Part shown: positions 13,465 to 19,799 of the stretch, piece after piece
Layout of the letters: each line of letters starts with the position of its first letter
Position numbering within the stretch: position 1 is the first letter of the stretch
Source of the DNA: an uncultured Pelagibacteraceae bacterium
GTDB lineage: Bacteria; Pseudomonadota; Alphaproteobacteria; Pelagibacterales; Pelagibacteraceae
DNA length: 33,305 bases
Assembly: GCA_902522915.1 (NCBI GenBank)
Contig: CABYXQ010000011.1
Span: 1-33,305, forward strand
Direction of reading: 5' to 3'
Notes under the pieces: generated by a model
Databases searched by the model: none
Told to the model about the DNA's origin: nothing
Seen by the model: only the letters and a program-made list of their open reading frames with translations
Translations under genes and position numbers: made by a program

Positions 13465-13803
13465 TTAAGAATTTACTTTGCCTAAGAAATTAACAAGTAC
13501 AACGCCTATAATAATTAAAATAATACCCAATGAACCATAAATATTTGGTAGTTGATTATACTTAATAATTCCAAAAAGTGTTACAGCAGTAATGGTTAAA
13601 CCTCCATACGTGGCATATGTAAAACCAACAGGAATTAAATTCATTGCTTTAGATAAACAAAATAAACAAAAAACTATCGATGTTACACAAAAAATTGTTG
13701 GAAAAATATTAGTAAATCCATTTGTAGTTTTTAAAAAACCATTAGCAGAGATTCCAAGTATAACAGCTAAAATTAAATAGATGTATCCTGATGAGAAATT
13801 CAT
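13465..13803 (-). CDS. SMR/EmrE-like four-helix membrane protein lacking the key glutamate
   Basis: A 112-aa, four-helix protein that aligns end to end with EmrE: YIYLILAVILGISANGFLK against YIYLGGAILAEVIGTTLMK, GFTNIFPT against GFTRLWPS, IPVGFTYATYGG against IPTGIAYAIWSG. The proton/substrate residue Glu14 of EmrE corresponds to G17 here, and Trp63 to Y66, so a classic proton-coupled multidrug antiport mechanism is unlikely. It starts 9 bp after phnE and appears to be the last gene of phnDCE. Options include an accessory subunit, a lipid or head-group flippase like the ArnE/ArnF group, or an uncoupled pathway. Function unknown. Confidence 0.78.
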   Translation of the reverse strand: MNFSSGYIYLILAVILGISANGFLKTTNGFTNIFPTIFCVTSIVFCLFCLSKAMNLIPVGFTYATYGGLTITAVTLFGIIKYNQLPNIYGSLGIILIIIGVVLVNFLGKVNS

Positions 13804-13812
13804 CAGGTTATA

Positions 13813-14640
13813 TTATTTTATTTTTGATCTAATAAAAGCAGAAAAATGATCAATTAAAAAAATAGTTACAAAAATAAGTATTATAATTGCTGATACTCTT
13901 TCATATTCAAACATTCTAAATGATGATTGGAGTTCATATCCTATACCTCCAGCACCAACGATACCTAACATAGTAGCCATTCTAACATTCCGATCTAGGA
14001 TGTATAAATTGTTAGCAACAAAAGAAGGTAGTATTTGAGGTATAACCCCGAATGAAATAATTTGGCTTTTAGTTGCGCCAGATGATTTAAGCGCATCTAT
14101 CGGTCCTTTATTGATATGCTCAATATCTTCAGCATAAAATTTTGCTAAAAAACCCATTGTATGTAAACCTAAAGCAAGCACCCCTGGCATCGCTCCAAAT
14201 CCAATGGCAATAACTAAAATCATTGCAATAATAAATTCAGGAATTGCTCTAAAGAATATAACTATAGTTTTGCAAACAAGATAAACAAAATAATTAGGAG
14301 CTAAATTTCTTGCTGAAAATAATCCAAGAGGAATGGACAAAACTATAGCAATAAAAGTACCCAGAAAAGCAATTTCAATGGTTTCAAACATTGCATAAAT
14401 TAATTCGCTTAAATTACTAAAATCAGGGGGCAACATTCTTGATAAAATATCACCAAAATATTTTGAAGAGTCTGATACTAACTTTATAAAATCAATCTCC
14501 AGATCTTTAACTACAAATACTAAAGCAGAAGTAAATAAAACTATAAAAATAAGGGTTTTCCATGACCATTGGGGTCTTATATATTTTTCAAAGTTTTTAT
14601 TTTTATTATCTACCTTTAATTCTAAAATATTTTTATTCAT
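13813..14640 (-). CDS. phnE: Phosphonate-type ABC transporter permease
   Basis: Inner-membrane permease, 275 aa, about six membrane segments after a charged N-terminus of some 25 residues. The EAA-type coupling loop is visible as GPIDALKSSGATKSQIISFGVIPQILPSF (about 179-207). It is followed by RNVRMATMLGIVGAGGIGYEL, which is characteristic of PhnE. The family imports phosphonates, phosphite or related phosphorus compounds. It follows phnC by 4 bp and precedes the SMR-like gene by 9 bp. Confidence 0.92.
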   Translation of the reverse strand: MNKNILELKVDNKNKNFEKYIRPQWSWKTLIFIVLFTSALVFVVKDLEIDFIKLVSDSSKYFGDILSRMLPPDFSNLSELIYAMFETIEIAFLGTFIAIVLSIPLGLFSARNLAPNYFVYLVCKTIVIFFRAIPEFIIAMILVIAIGFGAMPGVLALGLHTMGFLAKFYAEDIEHINKGPIDALKSSGATKSQIISFGVIPQILPSFVANNLYILDRNVRMATMLGIVGAGGIGYELQSSFRMFEYERVSAIIILIFVTIFLIDHFSAFIRSKIK

Positions 14641-14644
14641 AATT

Positions 14645-15367
14645 TTAGCTATATATTTTCTTTAAGTATGCTTCGTTAATATTGCTTGATTTTTCATCAA
14701 ATGTAATTTTCCCATCAATGAGACCAACAACCCTATCTGAATATTTTTTTGCTAAATCTACTTGGTGAAGATTGCATAAAATAGTTGTTCCAAATTCTTG
14801 ATTTATTTTTTTTAATAATGATAAAATTAAATTTGAGGATTTAGGATCCAAACTCGCTACAGGTTCATCAGCTAACAATAACAATGGTTTTTTTATGATT
14901 GCTCTTGCTATCCCTACTCTTTGTCTTTGACCTCCTGATAGCTCATCAGATCTACTATAAGATTTTTCAAGTAAACCAACTGTCTCTAATGATCTTAATG
15001 CTTCAATCTTTTGTTTTTTTGAAAATAGATAAAACAGAGATAAAAATTTATTACTTGAGTTTAAAAGACCAGTCAATACGTTATTGATCGCAGAAAGATT
15101 ATTTACAAGATTAAATTCTTGGAAAATCATTCCAGTTTTTTTCTGAACCTCTGAAATATTATTATTATTTACTTCTTTATTATCAAAATAAATTTCTCCT
15201 CCACTTGAAGTTTCAAGACCATTAATTGTTCTAAGTAGAGTTGTTTTACCAGATCCACTAGGTCCTAGAATACTTACAAATTCACCTTTATTAATTTTTA
15301 AATCTATCCCTTTTAATGCTGGACTGCCATTATTAAAAGTTTTTTTAAGATTGTTTATTTCAAGCAT
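14645..15367 (-). CDS. phnC: Phosphonate-type ABC transporter ATP-binding protein
   Basis: Cytoplasmic ATPase of the PhnCDE importer, 240 aa. Walker A is GPSGSGKTT (35-43), the Q-loop region is GMIFQEFNLV, the signature is LSGGQRQRVGIARAI, Walker B is LLLADEPVASLD, and the switch His lies in NLHQVDLAKKYSDRVVGL. The segment between Q-loop and signature (NVLTGLLNSSNKFLSLFYLFSKKQKIEAL) has the PhnC-type length. It lies 17 bp after phnD and 4 bp before phnE. Confidence 0.93.
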   Translation of the reverse strand: MLEINNLKKTFNNGSPALKGIDLKINKGEFVSILGPSGSGKTTLLRTINGLETSSGGEIYFDNKEVNNNNISEVQKKTGMIFQEFNLVNNLSAINNVLTGLLNSSNKFLSLFYLFSKKQKIEALRSLETVGLLEKSYSRSDELSGGQRQRVGIARAIIKKPLLLLADEPVASLDPKSSNLILSLLKKINQEFGTTILCNLHQVDLAKKYSDRVVGLIDGKITFDEKSSNINEAYLKKIYS

Positions 15368-15384: not shown

Positions 15385-16239
15385 TTAACTTTTGTTTTTA
15401 TTTAATAGTTCAATAACTTCTCTTAAAACATTGTAGTCTGAATCTTTAACTTCCATATAATGAGACATTTTTCCACCATATCCACCTATCTCTCCATGGT
15501 TATGAGCGTCTAAAACAGCCTTTTTTATTTTATCTCTGTCTTCTTTTGGTATCATTTTTGAATAAGCTAAAGGTGGTGGTGGAACTCTATCTGATTTATG
15601 TATAATCCTGACATCATCTTCTTTAAAAGTTCCGTCTTCTAATCTTGCTTCATAATTTCTAGAACTCATGCCACACACATCCGATTGATTATTTATTACA
15701 GCAAGTAAACAAGCGTCATGACTGCCAGCATAAAAAACATTTTCAAAATGATCCTTATTCTTTATAGAAAGATTAATCTTACTTAATTCTACTTGTGGAA
15801 TTAAATCACCACTGGTCGAGCCTATAGTATTTAAGGATAAAATTTTTCCTTTAACATCAGTAAATTTTTTTAATTCACTGTCTTGTTTTACAACAAAATA
15901 TGCATAATAACCTGCATCTTTTTCACCTGGCCTAACACCAGCAGCAAATGCTTCTGCCCCAGCGATCTCAGCTGCTTTGACATATGTTTTACCACCATAC
16001 CAAGCAATGTGTGCTCTACCTGCTCTCATGGCCTCAACAGCTGCGTTATAATCTGTAACTTTGATAGTTTCAATCTTAAGACCAGTAAGTTTTTCTGTAA
16101 TAGAAATTAAAGTTTTATAATCACTTTCATCGCCTTTTTCACTCGCTGGTACAAATACCATTTTATAGGTCTTAGCTGCAGCGTTTAAATTTCCAGCAAA
16201 TAAAACTAAAAATAATATAATTAGTGCTTTTTTTATCAT
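15385..16239 (-). CDS. phnD: Phosphonate-type ABC transporter periplasmic binding protein
   Basis: Periplasmic solute-binding protein, 284 aa from the ATG at 16239. That start is chosen over the ATGs at 16260 and 16254 because AAAGGA lies 7 bp upstream and it gives a clean signal peptide (IKKALIILFLVLFAGNLNA). PhnD-family marks are DYNAAVEAMRAGRAHIAWYGGKTY, STSGDLIPQVEL and the anion-site segment YAGSHDACLLAVINN. Two cysteines in the ligand-binding half (C in HDAC and DVC) are not general to the family. The true ligand could be 2-aminoethylphosphonate, methylphosphonate or phosphite; sequence alone does not decide. Confidence 0.92.
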   Translation of the reverse strand: MIKKALIILFLVLFAGNLNAAAKTYKMVFVPASEKGDESDYKTLISITEKLTGLKIETIKVTDYNAAVEAMRAGRAHIAWYGGKTYVKAAEIAGAEAFAAGVRPGEKDAGYYAYFVVKQDSELKKFTDVKGKILSLNTIGSTSGDLIPQVELSKINLSIKNKDHFENVFYAGSHDACLLAVINNQSDVCGMSSRNYEARLEDGTFKEDDVRIIHKSDRVPPPPLAYSKMIPKEDRDKIKKAVLDAHNHGEIGGYGGKMSHYMEVKDSDYNVLREVIELLNKNKS

Positions 16240-16276
16240 AATTTGTCCTTTCATTATCATTAACTATGTTCGCTAA

Positions 16277-16320
16277 CAAGTTAATTATAATAAAAAAAGA
16301 TAAAGTAAAGGTGAGAAATG
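16277..16320 (-). promoter_or_regulatory. Possible promoter for the phnDCE unit
   Basis: Reading minus, a TATAAT -10-like hexamer (16289-16284) lies 45 bp upstream of the phnD start, in the gap after the HTH-nucleotidyltransferase gene. A convincing -35 at standard spacing and a Pho box are not seen. No terminator hairpin is visible in this gap, so read-through from upstream genes remains possible. Confidence 0.35.
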
Positions 16321-17454
16321 TTAAGTTTTTGTGAATTTTTTCTTAAATCCAACTAAAGCTTTTTTATAATCTTCAACGGTATCAATCTCTTTCCATCCGC
16401 TCTCAATGATAACACAATGGACTTTGATTCCAATATCTACAAGTTCTTGAATAAAATCAGTAAGATAAGCTTTTTGAAATGTTTTGGCTCTCTGAAAAGG
16501 TTTATTCCAATAAATCTTTTTTAGCCTATGAAAATGTTCTTTAAAAATTTCTGCACCACGATTTGTTAATTTAATCATACCAATAAATTCTCCATGAACT
16601 TCTTCATTACCAGTATTAATCTTTCCTATTTTTTCAACTTCATTATTTGAATTAAATATTACATTTTCAGCTTCTGTAAGTGGGTGGTCTTTTCGTCCAA
16701 CATAATAACCTCTCCAATCAATATCTACTACAACAGATATATCATGATTACTATTTAATGTTCTTTTAACAACTGTTGAGTCAAATAAAATGTCTGAGTA
16801 AGAAATAATTATATTTCCATTTATAAAATCCTCGGCATAAAATATTGAATTTAAAATATTATTATTTTTGTAATCAGTATTTTCAAAATATTTTATACCT
16901 TTGTATTTTATTTTTTCTTTTTTATAGCCTCTTATTACTGATATATCTTTAATTGAATTTTTTTTATAAGCATCTAATTGTCTTTGTAATAAAGTTTTCC
17001 CACCAAAATCAAGCATACATTTTGGAAGGTTTTCTGTATGTTTTTTTAATCTACTACCCAAACCTGCAGCTATTATAAGTGCTTTGCTAGTATTGGAATT
17101 TAAAGATTTTTCCAAATTATCTATTTGAATATCATTAAGTTCATTTTCTTTTATACTTCTAATTAAAGAAATTATTTTTGGATTACTTTCAATGTATTCA
17201 CTTATGTCTGGAGCAACTCCTTTTTTTGAAAATCCAGCTAAATCATGTAAGTGATTTTTATCTGTTTCAAGAACGATTGACATTTTATTTATAACATTAA
17301 TTTTAGGAGCCGTACGCTTATTTTTTTCAATATCATTTAAATATGAAGCAGCTATACCAATTCTAACAGCTAATTCTCTTTGACCTATGCCCTTCTTAAG
17401 TCTTAGTTCGCGAATAAAAGTTCCAAATTTATTAAAGTTTTTATTTGGTGGCAT
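16321..17454 (-). CDS. Fusion of XRE-type HTH regulator and LicC/PntC-like nucleotidyltransferase
   Basis: A 377-aa two-domain protein. Residues about 10-73 form an XRE/Cro-type helix-turn-helix (FIRELRLKKGIGQRELAVRIG, SYLNDIEKNKRTAPK). A linker of about 50 residues follows. Residues about 124-370 form a nucleotidyltransferase: ALIIAAGLGSRLKKHTENLPKCML (nucleotide loop and Lys), SYSDILF (D221, metal), DWRGYYVGRKDHPLTEAENVIF, GEFIGMIKLT and GWKEIDTVEDY (D358, metal). The NTase resembles phosphocholine and phosphonate cytidylyltransferases (LicC, PntC, or NTase domains attached to PEP mutase), so it probably makes a CDP-activated phospho- or phosphono-alcohol. It starts 3 bp after the CDP-alcohol phosphotransferase gene. 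I do not know a described function for this HTH fusion. Confidence 0.82.
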   Translation of the reverse strand: MPPNKNFNKFGTFIRELRLKKGIGQRELAVRIGIAASYLNDIEKNKRTAPKINVINKMSIVLETDKNHLHDLAGFSKKGVAPDISEYIESNPKIISLIRSIKENELNDIQIDNLEKSLNSNTSKALIIAAGLGSRLKKHTENLPKCMLDFGGKTLLQRQLDAYKKNSIKDISVIRGYKKEKIKYKGIKYFENTDYKNNNILNSIFYAEDFINGNIIISYSDILFDSTVVKRTLNSNHDISVVVDIDWRGYYVGRKDHPLTEAENVIFNSNNEVEKIGKINTGNEEVHGEFIGMIKLTNRGAEIFKEHFHRLKKIYWNKPFQRAKTFQKAYLTDFIQELVDIGIKVHCVIIESGWKEIDTVEDYKKALVGFKKKFTKT

Positions 17455-17457
17455 AAT

Positions 17458-18588
17458 TTATCTTAATATATTTACTATATTTTCATTAATAAAATCTGAA
17501 GTTTTATTATAGTTAAAAAAGTTTTTATCAATAAATTTATCAATCTCATCATTATTTTCATTAAAATTTATAATAGATTGTTCAATAATATTATTTAAAT
17601 CATCAATTTGATTATTCTTAAAGAAAGTTCCAAATTTAAATTTTATTTTATCATCAATAGATTCAAAATCTTTAAAATTTTCAATTTGATTATTGTGAAT
17701 TTTATCAAAATCATCAAAATAAAGAATTGGTCTTTTCATTAATAATAAAAATTCTATTGAAATACCAGAATTATCAGTGATTAAACATTTTGCCCTTTCA
17801 AATGCTTTGTAATTTTCAGGGTCATCATCATACACAAACATTTCACCACTAAATTTTTTCTTGATTGAATTTAAGTATATTTGTGATCTTTTTAAATTTT
17901 CAGGATGTGGTCTAAATCTTACTTTAAAGCCATTTTTAAGTGTCTTATCTATAATTTTTTCAAAATTTTCATTTATAAATTGCTTTTTATTATTATTCCA
18001 TGAAGGAGCTATTAAAATTTCATCATTAACTTCATTTTTATTTGATTTTAAATGAAGATAATCAAAATACGGATAACCTGATTTTATTAATTTTTTTTTT
18101 TTTAATTTATGAAGGTCTTCTCTTAATTCAATTTCTTTTATCTGGTAATCTCCATTACATAAAATTGTATCATAATTATCAAAAGCTGTTGATGTGTAAA
18201 CTTTTGTTGTGCTTACAGCTCCATGGAAAAAATATATATAATTTTTAATAAATTTATTTCTTTTTACTATTGTATTATCTAAATCTGTCAAAGTAAGAAA
18301 CATATTTTCACCTTTAACTGTTAAAAAAAAATATTGCATTAAGACGCCTTTACCAATGTAAATATTTTTAACATTAATATCCGTCACTTTGTCATCAAAG
18401 TCAGATGATACGTAATAAATTTGATTTGGATATTTTTTATTTATAGCATCTATTAATAAGTATGCGTATTTGAGGTAAGCTTTATTTTCTGAAAAAAAAA
18501 TTACTTTAGGTTTATCTTTATTGATTTGTTTTATATTTTTAATTATTAAAAAAAACTCTTTAAAATTTGAAATTAATTTTTTTAACAT
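17458..18588 (-). CDS. CDP-glycerol glycerophosphotransferase family protein (TagB/TagF-like)
   Basis: A 376-aa protein of the teichoic-acid-type CDP-alcohol phosphotransferase family, a GT-B-like fold that moves a phospho-alcohol from its CDP carrier onto an acceptor, often at the inner face of the membrane. Visible family motifs are FFHGAVST (120-127), RFRPHPEN (224-231) and TDNSGISIEFLLL (271-283), with LIAPSWNNN (192-200) at the start of the C-terminal domain. The N-terminus is basic and amphipathic. It is very Lys/Asn/Ile-rich. It lies 5 bp after manC and 3 bp before the HTH-nucleotidyltransferase, which probably supplies its CDP substrate. Confidence 0.82.
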   Translation of the reverse strand: MLKKLISNFKEFFLIIKNIKQINKDKPKVIFFSENKAYLKYAYLLIDAINKKYPNQIYYVSSDFDDKVTDINVKNIYIGKGVLMQYFFLTVKGENMFLTLTDLDNTIVKRNKFIKNYIYFFHGAVSTTKVYTSTAFDNYDTILCNGDYQIKEIELREDLHKLKKKKLIKSGYPYFDYLHLKSNKNEVNDEILIAPSWNNNKKQFINENFEKIIDKTLKNGFKVRFRPHPENLKRSQIYLNSIKKKFSGEMFVYDDDPENYKAFERAKCLITDNSGISIEFLLLMKRPILYFDDFDKIHNNQIENFKDFESIDDKIKFKFGTFFKNNQIDDLNNIIEQSIINFNENNDEIDKFIDKNFFNYNKTSDFINENIVNILR

Positions 18589-18593
18589 TTAAT

Positions 18594-19799
18594 TTATTTT
18601 ACTCTGCCATAAATATCCTGATATCTTACAATATCCGTTTCTTTTAGAATAGAACCTACTTGTGCTTCAATAATTTTGACTGGTTTTTTTCCTGAATTTT
18701 GAATTCTATGAATAGCTTTAAGAGGAATGAATATATGATCACCTGGTTTTTTAATTATTATATTTTTATTAAGGGTTATTTTAGCAATACCATTTGTAAC
18801 TAACCAATGTTCAGCACGGTGATGGTGTTTTTGTAAACTCAATATTCCTTTTGGTTTAACAAATAATTCCTTAATTAGAAATTCTTTACCTTCGAATAAA
18901 TTTATATATTTGCCCCATGGACGATAATAAACATTTTTTTTTTTAACATATTTGTTTTTATTTTTGTCATACATTTTCAAGATTTCTTTCCAGCTGCCAA
19001 GATCTGACCATGGTATATCTAGTTTAATAGCATTAATTTTTTTGGTTTTTTCTAAAATTGCATAATCAAATGATTTAGCAGTTGCTTTTATAAATGATGA
19101 TTTATTTAAATAATATGTATTAGATTTAAGTTTAGCTTTATTAACCGAATTAAAACAATTTCTATAAATACTAGGATTATATTTTTTAAAGTTATTAATT
19201 ATTGAGTCTTTTCTTAAAAAAAACATGCCTGAATTCCAATAACCTTTTTGTTTAATTACTTGCTTTGCTCTACTTACTATTGGTTTTTCAATGAATTTTG
19301 TAACTTTATTGATATTTCCTTTAATTTTTTTTGTTACAAAATATCCATATTCACTTGAAGGTGAGGTTGGTTTGATACCAAATATGAAAATATTTTGATC
19401 AGTTAATTTTGATTTATTTTTATTGATAGCTTTATTAAAAATATTCATTTTTTCTATTAAGTGATCAGCAGTAAAAAACATTAAAGGTTGATCATTAGGA
19501 ATATCTTTTATCAAAGCAGTGCTTAAAATAGCAGGAGCTGTATTTCTTTTAGCAGGCTCTAAAACTATCTTATGCTTTTTAATCTTATTTTTTTTAAGAT
19601 GCTTTATTACTTCTTTTAAATATTTCTTATTTGTGCTGATAATTGGTGTATCGTAAATTGAAGCTTTTATTCTTTCTAAAGTTTTGCCAAATAATGTCCA
19701 ATTACCAAAATCAATAAATTGTTTAGCTTGATGATTTTTAGAATTTGGCCAAAGTCGAGTTCCAGCACCTCCACATAAAATGACTGGACGAATTTTCAT
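18594..19799 (-). CDS. manC: Mannose-1-phosphate guanylyltransferase (type II PMI/GMP family)
   Basis: Cytosolic enzyme making GDP-mannose from mannose-1-P and GTP for surface polysaccharide. The 401-aa protein begins with the pyrophosphorylase loop PVILCGGAGTRLWPNS and has FFTADHLIE, TKFIEKP, YWNSGMFFLRKDS and WSDLGSWKEI. The C-terminal cupin domain (ILSLQKHHHRAEHWLVTNG) is that of type II phosphomannose isomerases, so a bifunctional enzyme is possible. It is shorter than the usual roughly 470 aa, with a shortened region between the domains. Its start overlaps the ilvD stop (TAATG). Confidence 0.88.
   Translation of the reverse strand: MKIRPVILCGGAGTRLWPNSKNHQAKQFIDFGNWTLFGKTLERIKASIYDTPIISTNKKYLKEVIKHLKKNKIKKHKIVLEPAKRNTAPAILSTALIKDIPNDQPLMFFTADHLIEKMNIFNKAINKNKSKLTDQNIFIFGIKPTSPSSEYGYFVTKKIKGNINKVTKFIEKPIVSRAKQVIKQKGYWNSGMFFLRKDSIINNFKKYNPSIYRNCFNSVNKAKLKSNTYYLNKSSFIKATAKSFDYAILEKTKKINAIKLDIPWSDLGSWKEILKMYDKNKNKYVKKKNVYYRPWGKYINLFEGKEFLIKELFVKPKGILSLQKHHHRAEHWLVTNGIAKITLNKNIIIKKPGDHIFIPLKAIHRIQNSGKKPVKIIEAQVGSILKETDIVRYQDIYGRVK

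Follow-up and report, generated by a model that had tools for sequence, protein, structure and literature searches.

A conserved fusion of an XRE regulator with a LicC/PntC-like nucleotidyltransferase in SAR11 bacteria and its candidate DNA site before a phosphonate importer

Some SAR11 bacteria carry a conserved enzyme-regulator fusion that comes with its own candidate DNA site. In the window, that is, the whole analyzed stretch of 33,305 nucleotides from an uncultured Pelagibacteraceae bacterium, the fusion gene (16321-17454, minus strand) encodes a 377-residue protein, HTH-CT, in which an XRE regulator is joined to a LicC/PntC-like nucleotidyltransferase. The fusion is conserved among relatives, a short element lies beside it, the intergenic copies of this element are confined, in the genomes searched, to those with the fusion, and one lineage lacks the head, the element and the importer together. 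We consider it rather probable that HTH-CT is a NadR-like enzyme-repressor, which would activate a phosphonate with CTP and gate the transporter, or the pathway, supplying that phosphonate. The conserved element GTWAGCGAACA beside the fusion gene is new here; no account of the fusion or the element was found in the open-access literature searched, a result that leaves their unpublished status unproven.

On the minus strand the gene reads as one uninterrupted open frame; the plus strand there is full of stops. An earlier note on this DNA had seen in one frame both a helix-turn-helix and a complete nucleotidyltransferase, and this is confirmed by Pfam, alignment and an AlphaFold model. The HTH (residues 10-73; 17236-17427, minus strand) is recognized by Pfam HTH_3 over residues 14-65 (E 1.5e-9; 38.2 bits, cut-off 23), and by the same model at 41.2 bits when residues 1-120 are taken alone. 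The head thus holds a full HTH that passes the curated HTH_3 cut-off and places it in the XRE family, and its sequence matches SinR (3qq6) at E 1.1e-7. Its best conserved stretch in a 29-row alignment, which leaves out L050, L065, L066 and L070, is S37-P50, where S37-Y38-L39-N40-D41, E43-K44, K46-R47 and A49-P50 are at least 90% identical over the rows. The segment that follows (residues 84-119; 17098-17205, minus strand), part of what had been described as a linker of roughly 50 residues, has three helices predicted by AlphaFold (84-90, 92-103 and 108-119), and residues 4-113, taken as a unit, match short free-standing frames in other members of the phylum (best E 1.5e-18), one of which, L186, is an HTH protein according to Pfam. 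The supposed linker therefore belongs to the regulator, and the protein is a complete small XRE regulator joined to a complete enzyme.

The nucleotidyltransferase domain (residues about 121-371; 16342-17094, minus strand) is matched by NTP_transf_3 over residues 125-243 (E 1.6e-9; 38.6 bits, cut-off 27) and, also over its cut-off, by NTP_transferase over residues 124-188; the Pfam list for the whole protein contains only HTH, NTP_transferase-type and IspD matches. A glycine-rich nucleotide loop, a lysine and two metal aspartates are all present, as expected for the LicC/PntC type. The aspartates D221 and D358, named as metal ligands by the earlier note, are invariant in the 29 rows, and so are A129-A130-G131, R135 and K145; the roles of these residues are presumably those suggested by the LicC/PntC alignment. 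The AlphaFold model, built on 29 sequences with a mean pLDDT of 80.7 (five models spanning 51.9 to 80.7), has confident helices in the head, with ten-residue means of 88-95 across residues 11-70, as well as the enzyme fold. Residues 1-122 folded without an alignment gave a poor model (pLDDT 46), which was set aside. Purifying selection seems to act on all three segments, with median dN/dS values of 0.18 for the head, 0.30 for the linker and 0.06 for the enzyme, which are rough values taken from 247-258 of 351 pairs (pS 0.05-0.70) with silent sites near saturation.

A contig scan over 84,980 species with two enzyme-only peptides returned 32 loci, 31 from SAR11 and one from a Thermoplasmata MAG, the latter 42% identical over the enzyme part. 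Among the 31 SAR11 loci, L067 holds the enzyme alone and the other 30 have the HTH head as well; relatives share the fusion at 70-92% identity. The earlier note had named as a danger to its idea an HTH absent from all close relatives together with a frameshift joining two genes; since the same fusion recurs in relatives, it is neither a frameshift nor a chance event, and an assembly fusion is likewise ruled out. The loci are interrelated rather than independent samples, and seemingly come from single-cell genomes and MAGs. Within the genus, 15 of 399 genomes, the window's own included, contain a near-full-length match (72-100% identity). Four of those 15 are listed with one or two TAA inside the matched stretch, and one of the four, G434, which is L039, has an intact 367-residue frame; in the same scan the match of G015 is cut, that of G108 is headless and that of G307 begins at residue 137.

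The headless L067 is informative about the history of the fusion. Its enzyme is 86% identical in the best segment, its locus contains no head, no element and no phnDCE, and in its genome (G108) no PhnE passes the cut-off. In the tree, L067 is nested among HTH-bearing rows (support 95/87), and because of this position the absence reads most simply as loss of the head. In the Thermoplasmata MAG (L071:2240-3636), the enzyme adjoins a TagD-like frame near a contig end, and the N-terminal head of about 50 residues, in which Pfam finds nothing, looks ribbon-helix-helix-like by eye. A phage origin of the fusion was considered and rejected: searching viral contigs with this one protein yielded 21 pattern matches, none of them a confirmed relative, and among seven phage records the head alone was matched in six (within residues 3-116) and a 50-residue piece of the enzyme in one.

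Downstream of the fusion gene in the window lies a PhnDCE importer on the same minus strand, each component of which is matched by at least one model over its cut-off. PhnD (15385-16260) is matched by Pfam Phosphonate-bd (1.5e-48) and passes TIGR01098, and its score against the PhnD equivalog TIGR03431 is 205.9 bits, below the cut-off of 261.1. The ATPase PhnC (14645-15367) reaches 318.8 bits with TIGR02315 (cut-off 266.1), and the permease PhnE (13813-14640) 290.2 bits with TIGR01097 (cut-off 216.7). Next comes a small transporter of the SMR family (13465-13803, minus strand; Pfam Multi_Drug_Res, 3.5e-15), which is also seen downstream of phnE in many other loci. The phnD start is likely the ATG at 16239, after AAAGGA, and with this start the element would be untranslated; in L060, L062 and L064 the longest phnD frame begins before or inside the element, and a later ATG is the likelier start.

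The genes phnD, phnC and phnE come next on the same strand in 26 of 28 head-bearing loci, the exceptions being L043 and L059. These 28 comprise the window and those 27 of the 30 head-bearing loci in which the next gene can be read; L065, L066 and L070 end before it, and L040, L060 and L062 begin inside the fusion gene. It had been asked earlier whether the domain pair always neighbors TagF-like, pepM or glycan genes. The steady partner is instead phnDCE, and tagF and manC come and go. In the window, the fusion gene is flanked on its upstream side by a gene for a TagF-like glycerophosphotransferase-family protein (17458-18588, minus strand; Pfam Glyphos_transf, 4e-10), a facultative partner, and by a manC-like GMP/PMI gene (18594-19799, minus strand; 372.8 bits with TIGR01479, narrowly short of the cut-off of 372.95), a facultative neighbor. 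TagF as a constant partner was rejected, as it is absent beside the fusion in many loci. Elsewhere the upstream side is occupied by manC, tagF, thyX (Thy1; L061 and L063) or a 23S rRNA gene of the same orientation, which in L049-L051 ends about 80-90 bases upstream of the fusion gene. This adjoining of cassette and 23S rRNA gene (L049:5129-7962, L050:2158-4991, L051:5159-8001) represents one of several chromosomal places; in these three loci Rfam lists 16S, two tRNAs and 23S, and no 5S rRNA. L059 keeps the head, is followed by a glycosyltransferase gene and has neither element nor importer. At the left end of L046 (1-750) phnD and phnC occur a second time in shortened form (139 and 104 aa), either a duplication or an assembly artefact.

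L043 differs from the other loci in placing the fusion among genes for phosphonate synthesis. Upstream of the fusion gene are a PEP mutase that carries a fused TagD-like domain, Ppd and an Fe-ADH, and downstream is mpnS; PEP_mutase and Ppd score over the cut-off, MpnS matches PDB 6b9s at E 1.7e-108, and phnDCE is absent from the locus. The element lies between the fusion gene and mpnS. The whole region (L043:3664-10561, SAR11 genome AG-909-C05) has the appearance of a methylphosphonate cassette, made up of PhyH, TagD-PEP mutase, Ppd, Fe-ADH, HTH-CT and MpnS.

The element was found by comparing the gaps between genes. GTWAGCGAACA is the core of a near-palindrome, TTGTWAGCGAACAA, flanked by A+T-rich inverted arms. 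In the window, the core, GTTAGCGAACA, is a candidate operator before phnD (16267-16277, minus strand), and with its inverted arms attaactt...tagttaat, which are possible operator flanks or an RNA stem, the element spans 16259-16285 on the same strand. It lies within 160 nt after the fusion stop in 27 of the 28 loci, 26 of them with an exact GTWAGCGAACA and L045 with two variants; in L059, no intergenic match was found in the locus with up to two mismatches allowed. L048 contains two copies, L049-L051 have a second copy before the fusion gene, and in the genome of L065 the element precedes phnD on a separate contig (L124).

In the genomes searched, this distribution is specific to the cassette. 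The 32 enzyme-bearing genomes hold 34 exact core matches, of which 31 are at the place just described, as assigned by position and count and including the one on the separate contig of L065's genome, and three are elsewhere, in reading frames; a reversed control pattern has nine matches in the same genomes. Across 151 genus genomes there are 17 core matches, five of them intergenic in four HTH-CT genomes and the other 12 in 11 fusion-free genomes, all inside mechanical reading frames, compared with 73 matches of the reversed pattern (the totals 9, 73 and 17 are hand sums from tables). The element was not found at loci of another phnE type, which occurs in six of the 151 genomes, three of them with C-P lyase, and because of this absence it appears to go with this cassette and not with phosphonate transport generally. 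In the window it is found only before phnD, with none near valS, ilvD or manC. These results support the earlier proposal of a link, made by the head, between transcription and the pathway, as the near-palindrome precedes phnD, or mpnS in L043, and its sole further intergenic position in the genomes searched is before the fusion gene of L049-L051. The more specific proposal that the enzyme represses its own operon agrees with the three of 28 loci that have an element before the fusion gene, but not with the others, the window among them.

The core itself is nearly symmetric, as expected for a dimeric XRE protein: around the center TTGTWAG|CGAACAA, 0.49 of the pairs are symmetric, compared with 0.30-0.38 at six other centers. 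The invariance of the core in the site table is partly a matter of construction, because the pattern itself served to select the sites. In L052, L058 and L061-L063 a sigma-70 promoter can be made out immediately upstream of the core; its general support is weak (mean score 8.6 vs 7.6 in shuffled sequences over 31 sites, with p at most 0.05 in five). The promoter scan of the window gave 24 sites vs 23.8 in shuffles, and its terminator scan gave none. The favored reading is that the conserved element is an operator, perhaps with some hairpin role.

Rather unlikely, in our estimate, is the alternative in which the element is a structured RNA, a hairpin with a conserved loop, that precedes the phnD ribosome-binding site and affects translation or the stability of the mRNA, with the HTH having its target elsewhere or none. 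The arms change sequence between clades yet largely stay complementary. The named stem has 86.4% of its cells paired vs 82.4% in shuffles, 12 cells changed on both sides vs 1-4 in slid controls, and a covariation score of 0.136 vs 0.077. Predicted hairpins are stable in the window (-14.9 kcal/mol, z -4.1) and decreasingly so in L063 (z -2.8) and L041 (z -1.6), whereas in the other three of the six sequences folded (L043, L058 and the upstream copy of L049) they are no better than shuffles, although the core is kept. RNAalifold on the set gives a nearly flat consensus (-0.32 kcal/mol), the pairs changed on both sides number four, a value reached by 106 of 500 shuffles, and Rfam contains no known RNA family at the window's element. 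The near-symmetry of the core also argues for an operator.

The kinship with LicC and PntC proposed earlier is borne out by sequence and fold. VIA-align ranks LicC 1jyk first (Z 25.1; 2.2 A, 24% identity, 224 residues), with GlmU (24.5) effectively tied, PntC 6pd2 at 24.3 and GalU and RmlA close. Foldseek gives E 1.1e-16 to 6pd2 and 4.2e-16 to 1jyk, consistent with the PF12804 family and fold; among the matches listed, the fold search concerns the enzyme part, and the HTH does not appear. Sequence matches to LicC and PntC have E values of 1.8e-12 and 7.6e-10. The domain is probably a CTP-dependent cytidylyltransferase acting on a phosphonate-type group. In PntC, Glu104 is described as lying near the amine of aminoethylphosphonate (PMC6697681). 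Its counterpart in the alignment is Tyr219, which all 29 rows share, so that the acidic residue near the AEP amine is missing; the sequence alignments stop before the second one near the amine, Glu196. CDP-choline and CMP-AEP become less likely as products with this replacement, and AEP would be a less likely substrate. A phosphonate lacking the amino group, for instance hydroxyethyl- or methylphosphonate, would fit.

In six of six frames tested, a related enzyme domain is joined to PEP mutase, and these domains form with the SAR11 rows one 25-row group (99/98), which holds only under midpoint rooting and includes L180 as well as Pfam-tested frames. Together with the setting of L043 and the TagD-like frame beside the enzyme of L071, the fusions suggest that the enzyme belongs with phosphonate-pathway cytidylyltransferases. 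A further recurring cluster seems to combine a PEP-utilizing-enzyme-like protein, a C26-type amidotransferase and a PntC-like enzyme (L006, L007, L008, L012, L015, L158, L161, L162 and L167); it has a Pfam basis in L158, and the others were recognized by eye, some with parts missing.

The binding protein offers additional hints about the ligand. By sequence, the closest solved relatives of the window's PhnD are the PtxB/PhnD binding proteins 5jvb and 5lq1 (E 1.6e-22), whose structures contain phosphite or methylphosphonate, and the STS and His motifs are retained. In Trichodesmium PtxB, a capping residue, Tyr208, is described as tied to phosphite selectivity (PMC5700983). Proline takes this position throughout the linked PhnDs aligned, which makes a bulkier ligand plausible. 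The positions of E177 and D205 of E. coli PhnD read as Arg and Pro in the PhnD alignment. We assume that these two E. coli residues hold the amine of AEP, and the comparison carries no weight in the argument. As a caution, a picocyanobacterial PhnDCE has been argued to be a phosphate transporter (PMC10284923).

Genes of phosphonate metabolism were sought in the 32 enzyme-bearing draft genomes, whose incompleteness makes each absence of C-P lyase, pepM or PhnX weak alone. PhnJ of C-P lyase is found in none of them, and in three of the 151 genus genomes, all among the six with the other phnE type. PhnX over the cut-off occurs in none of the 32, PhnW in one and PEP mutase in five. Nine genomes hold a PhnZ-like HD protein (163.6-170.1 bits, below the cut-off of 214.6), so some may degrade imported phosphonate.

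We likewise regard as rather unlikely that the enzyme supplies the TagF-like transferase with a different activated group (CDP-glycerol, CDP-choline or a sugar nucleotide), with phnDCE as a plain phosphorus importer sharing the regulator by chance. Such a product would suit the TagF-like neighbor in the window and several loci, the manC gene in many, the closeness in fold of GlmU, GalU and RmlA, and, as regards phosphorus use, the PhnZ-like genes. Against it, many loci have no tagF next to the fusion and phnDCE is nearly constant, the L043 enzyme sits within an operon for phosphonate synthesis, and related domains are fused to PEP mutase; a plain phosphorus importer also fits poorly with genomes, incomplete as they are, in which C-P lyase and PhnX were not detected.

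In the proposed enzyme-repressor mechanism, the C-terminal domain would couple an organophosphonate to CTP, yielding a CMP-phosphonate for a surface polymer, as kinship and neighbors suggest. The N-terminal XRE module would bind the near-palindrome before phnD, and when bound would repress the importer, or mpnS in one lineage, that supplies the enzyme's substrate; both steps are suggested by co-occurrence. Conceivably, the affinity for DNA is set, in either direction, by whether substrate, CTP or product fills the enzyme site. The element could also belong to another regulator of phnDCE, because head, element and importer mostly travel together, and only L043 and L049-L051 separate them. Some phosphonate enzymes, such as HppE, carry Cro-like heads. 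That the head of HTH-CT is likewise structural, serving dimerization without binding DNA, is improbable: MpnS in L043 is HppE-related with a weak HTH_26 match and the L067 enzyme persists without a head, but the head resembles stand-alone frames and SinR, is best conserved at S37-P50 and co-occurs with the near-palindrome in 27 of 28 loci.

A broader and more tentative proposal, possible without being our expectation, is a CMP-phosphonate salvage route: SAR11 bacteria without C-P lyase would import an intact non-amino phosphonate via PhnDCE and put it on surface glycans instead of using its phosphorus, in parallel to the de novo synthesis of methyl- or hydroxyethylphosphonate, with one bifunctional enzyme-repressor sensing the pool and controlling supply. 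Marine phosphonates feed methane release. If PhnDCE is tied to an activating enzyme in genomes where C-P lyase was not detected, not every SAR11 phosphonate transporter marks consumption. The candidate site and its single target make the enzyme-repressor reading directly testable with two purified pieces.

To our knowledge, enzymes that bear a DNA-binding head and regulate the transporter for their own substrate are few, NadR being the model. HTH-CT, if it acts as proposed, would be a second, independent design of the NadR type, found in streamlined and very abundant ocean bacteria, and a clear case of the principle. SinR, by comparison, is a stand-alone regulator (78-111 residues in PDB chains), whereas the regulator in HTH-CT is fused to an enzyme. 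LicC, the CTP:phosphocholine cytidylyltransferase (PDB 1jyk), is the best sequence match and, tied with GlmU, the best structural one, but unlike HTH-CT it has no HTH. Its Asp105 is equated with PntC Glu104 (PMC6697681) and through PntC would correspond to Tyr219, an uncertain correspondence, as the direct LicC alignment is shifted by one residue there. PntC, the CTP:2-aminoethylphosphonate cytidylyltransferase (Tde1415, PDB 6pd1/6pd2), shares the PF12804 fold and the phosphonate setting (PMC6697681), but is fused to an aminotransferase rather than an HTH, and most SAR11 HTH-CT loci have an importer alongside in place of a PntC-type biosynthetic operon.

NadR of Enterobacterales combines an HTH with an NMN adenylyltransferase and a ribosylnicotinamide kinase. 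Its N-terminal HTH is described as fused to the nucleotidyltransferase, repressing genes that include the transporter gene pnuC, and as occurring only in some relatives (PMC12421817). HTH-CT resembles it in the N-terminal HTH, the nucleotidyltransferase and the existence of headless relatives, and differs in nucleotidyltransferase family, substrate and target; its DNA binding is a prediction. Neither an NMN adenylyltransferase nor a kinase domain appears in its Pfam list, and among the best 25 of 34 NCBIfam rows there are nucleotidyltransferase and HTH models only, with no NadR. Since the enzyme domains differ, HTH-CT is not a NadR, and works like NadR at most.
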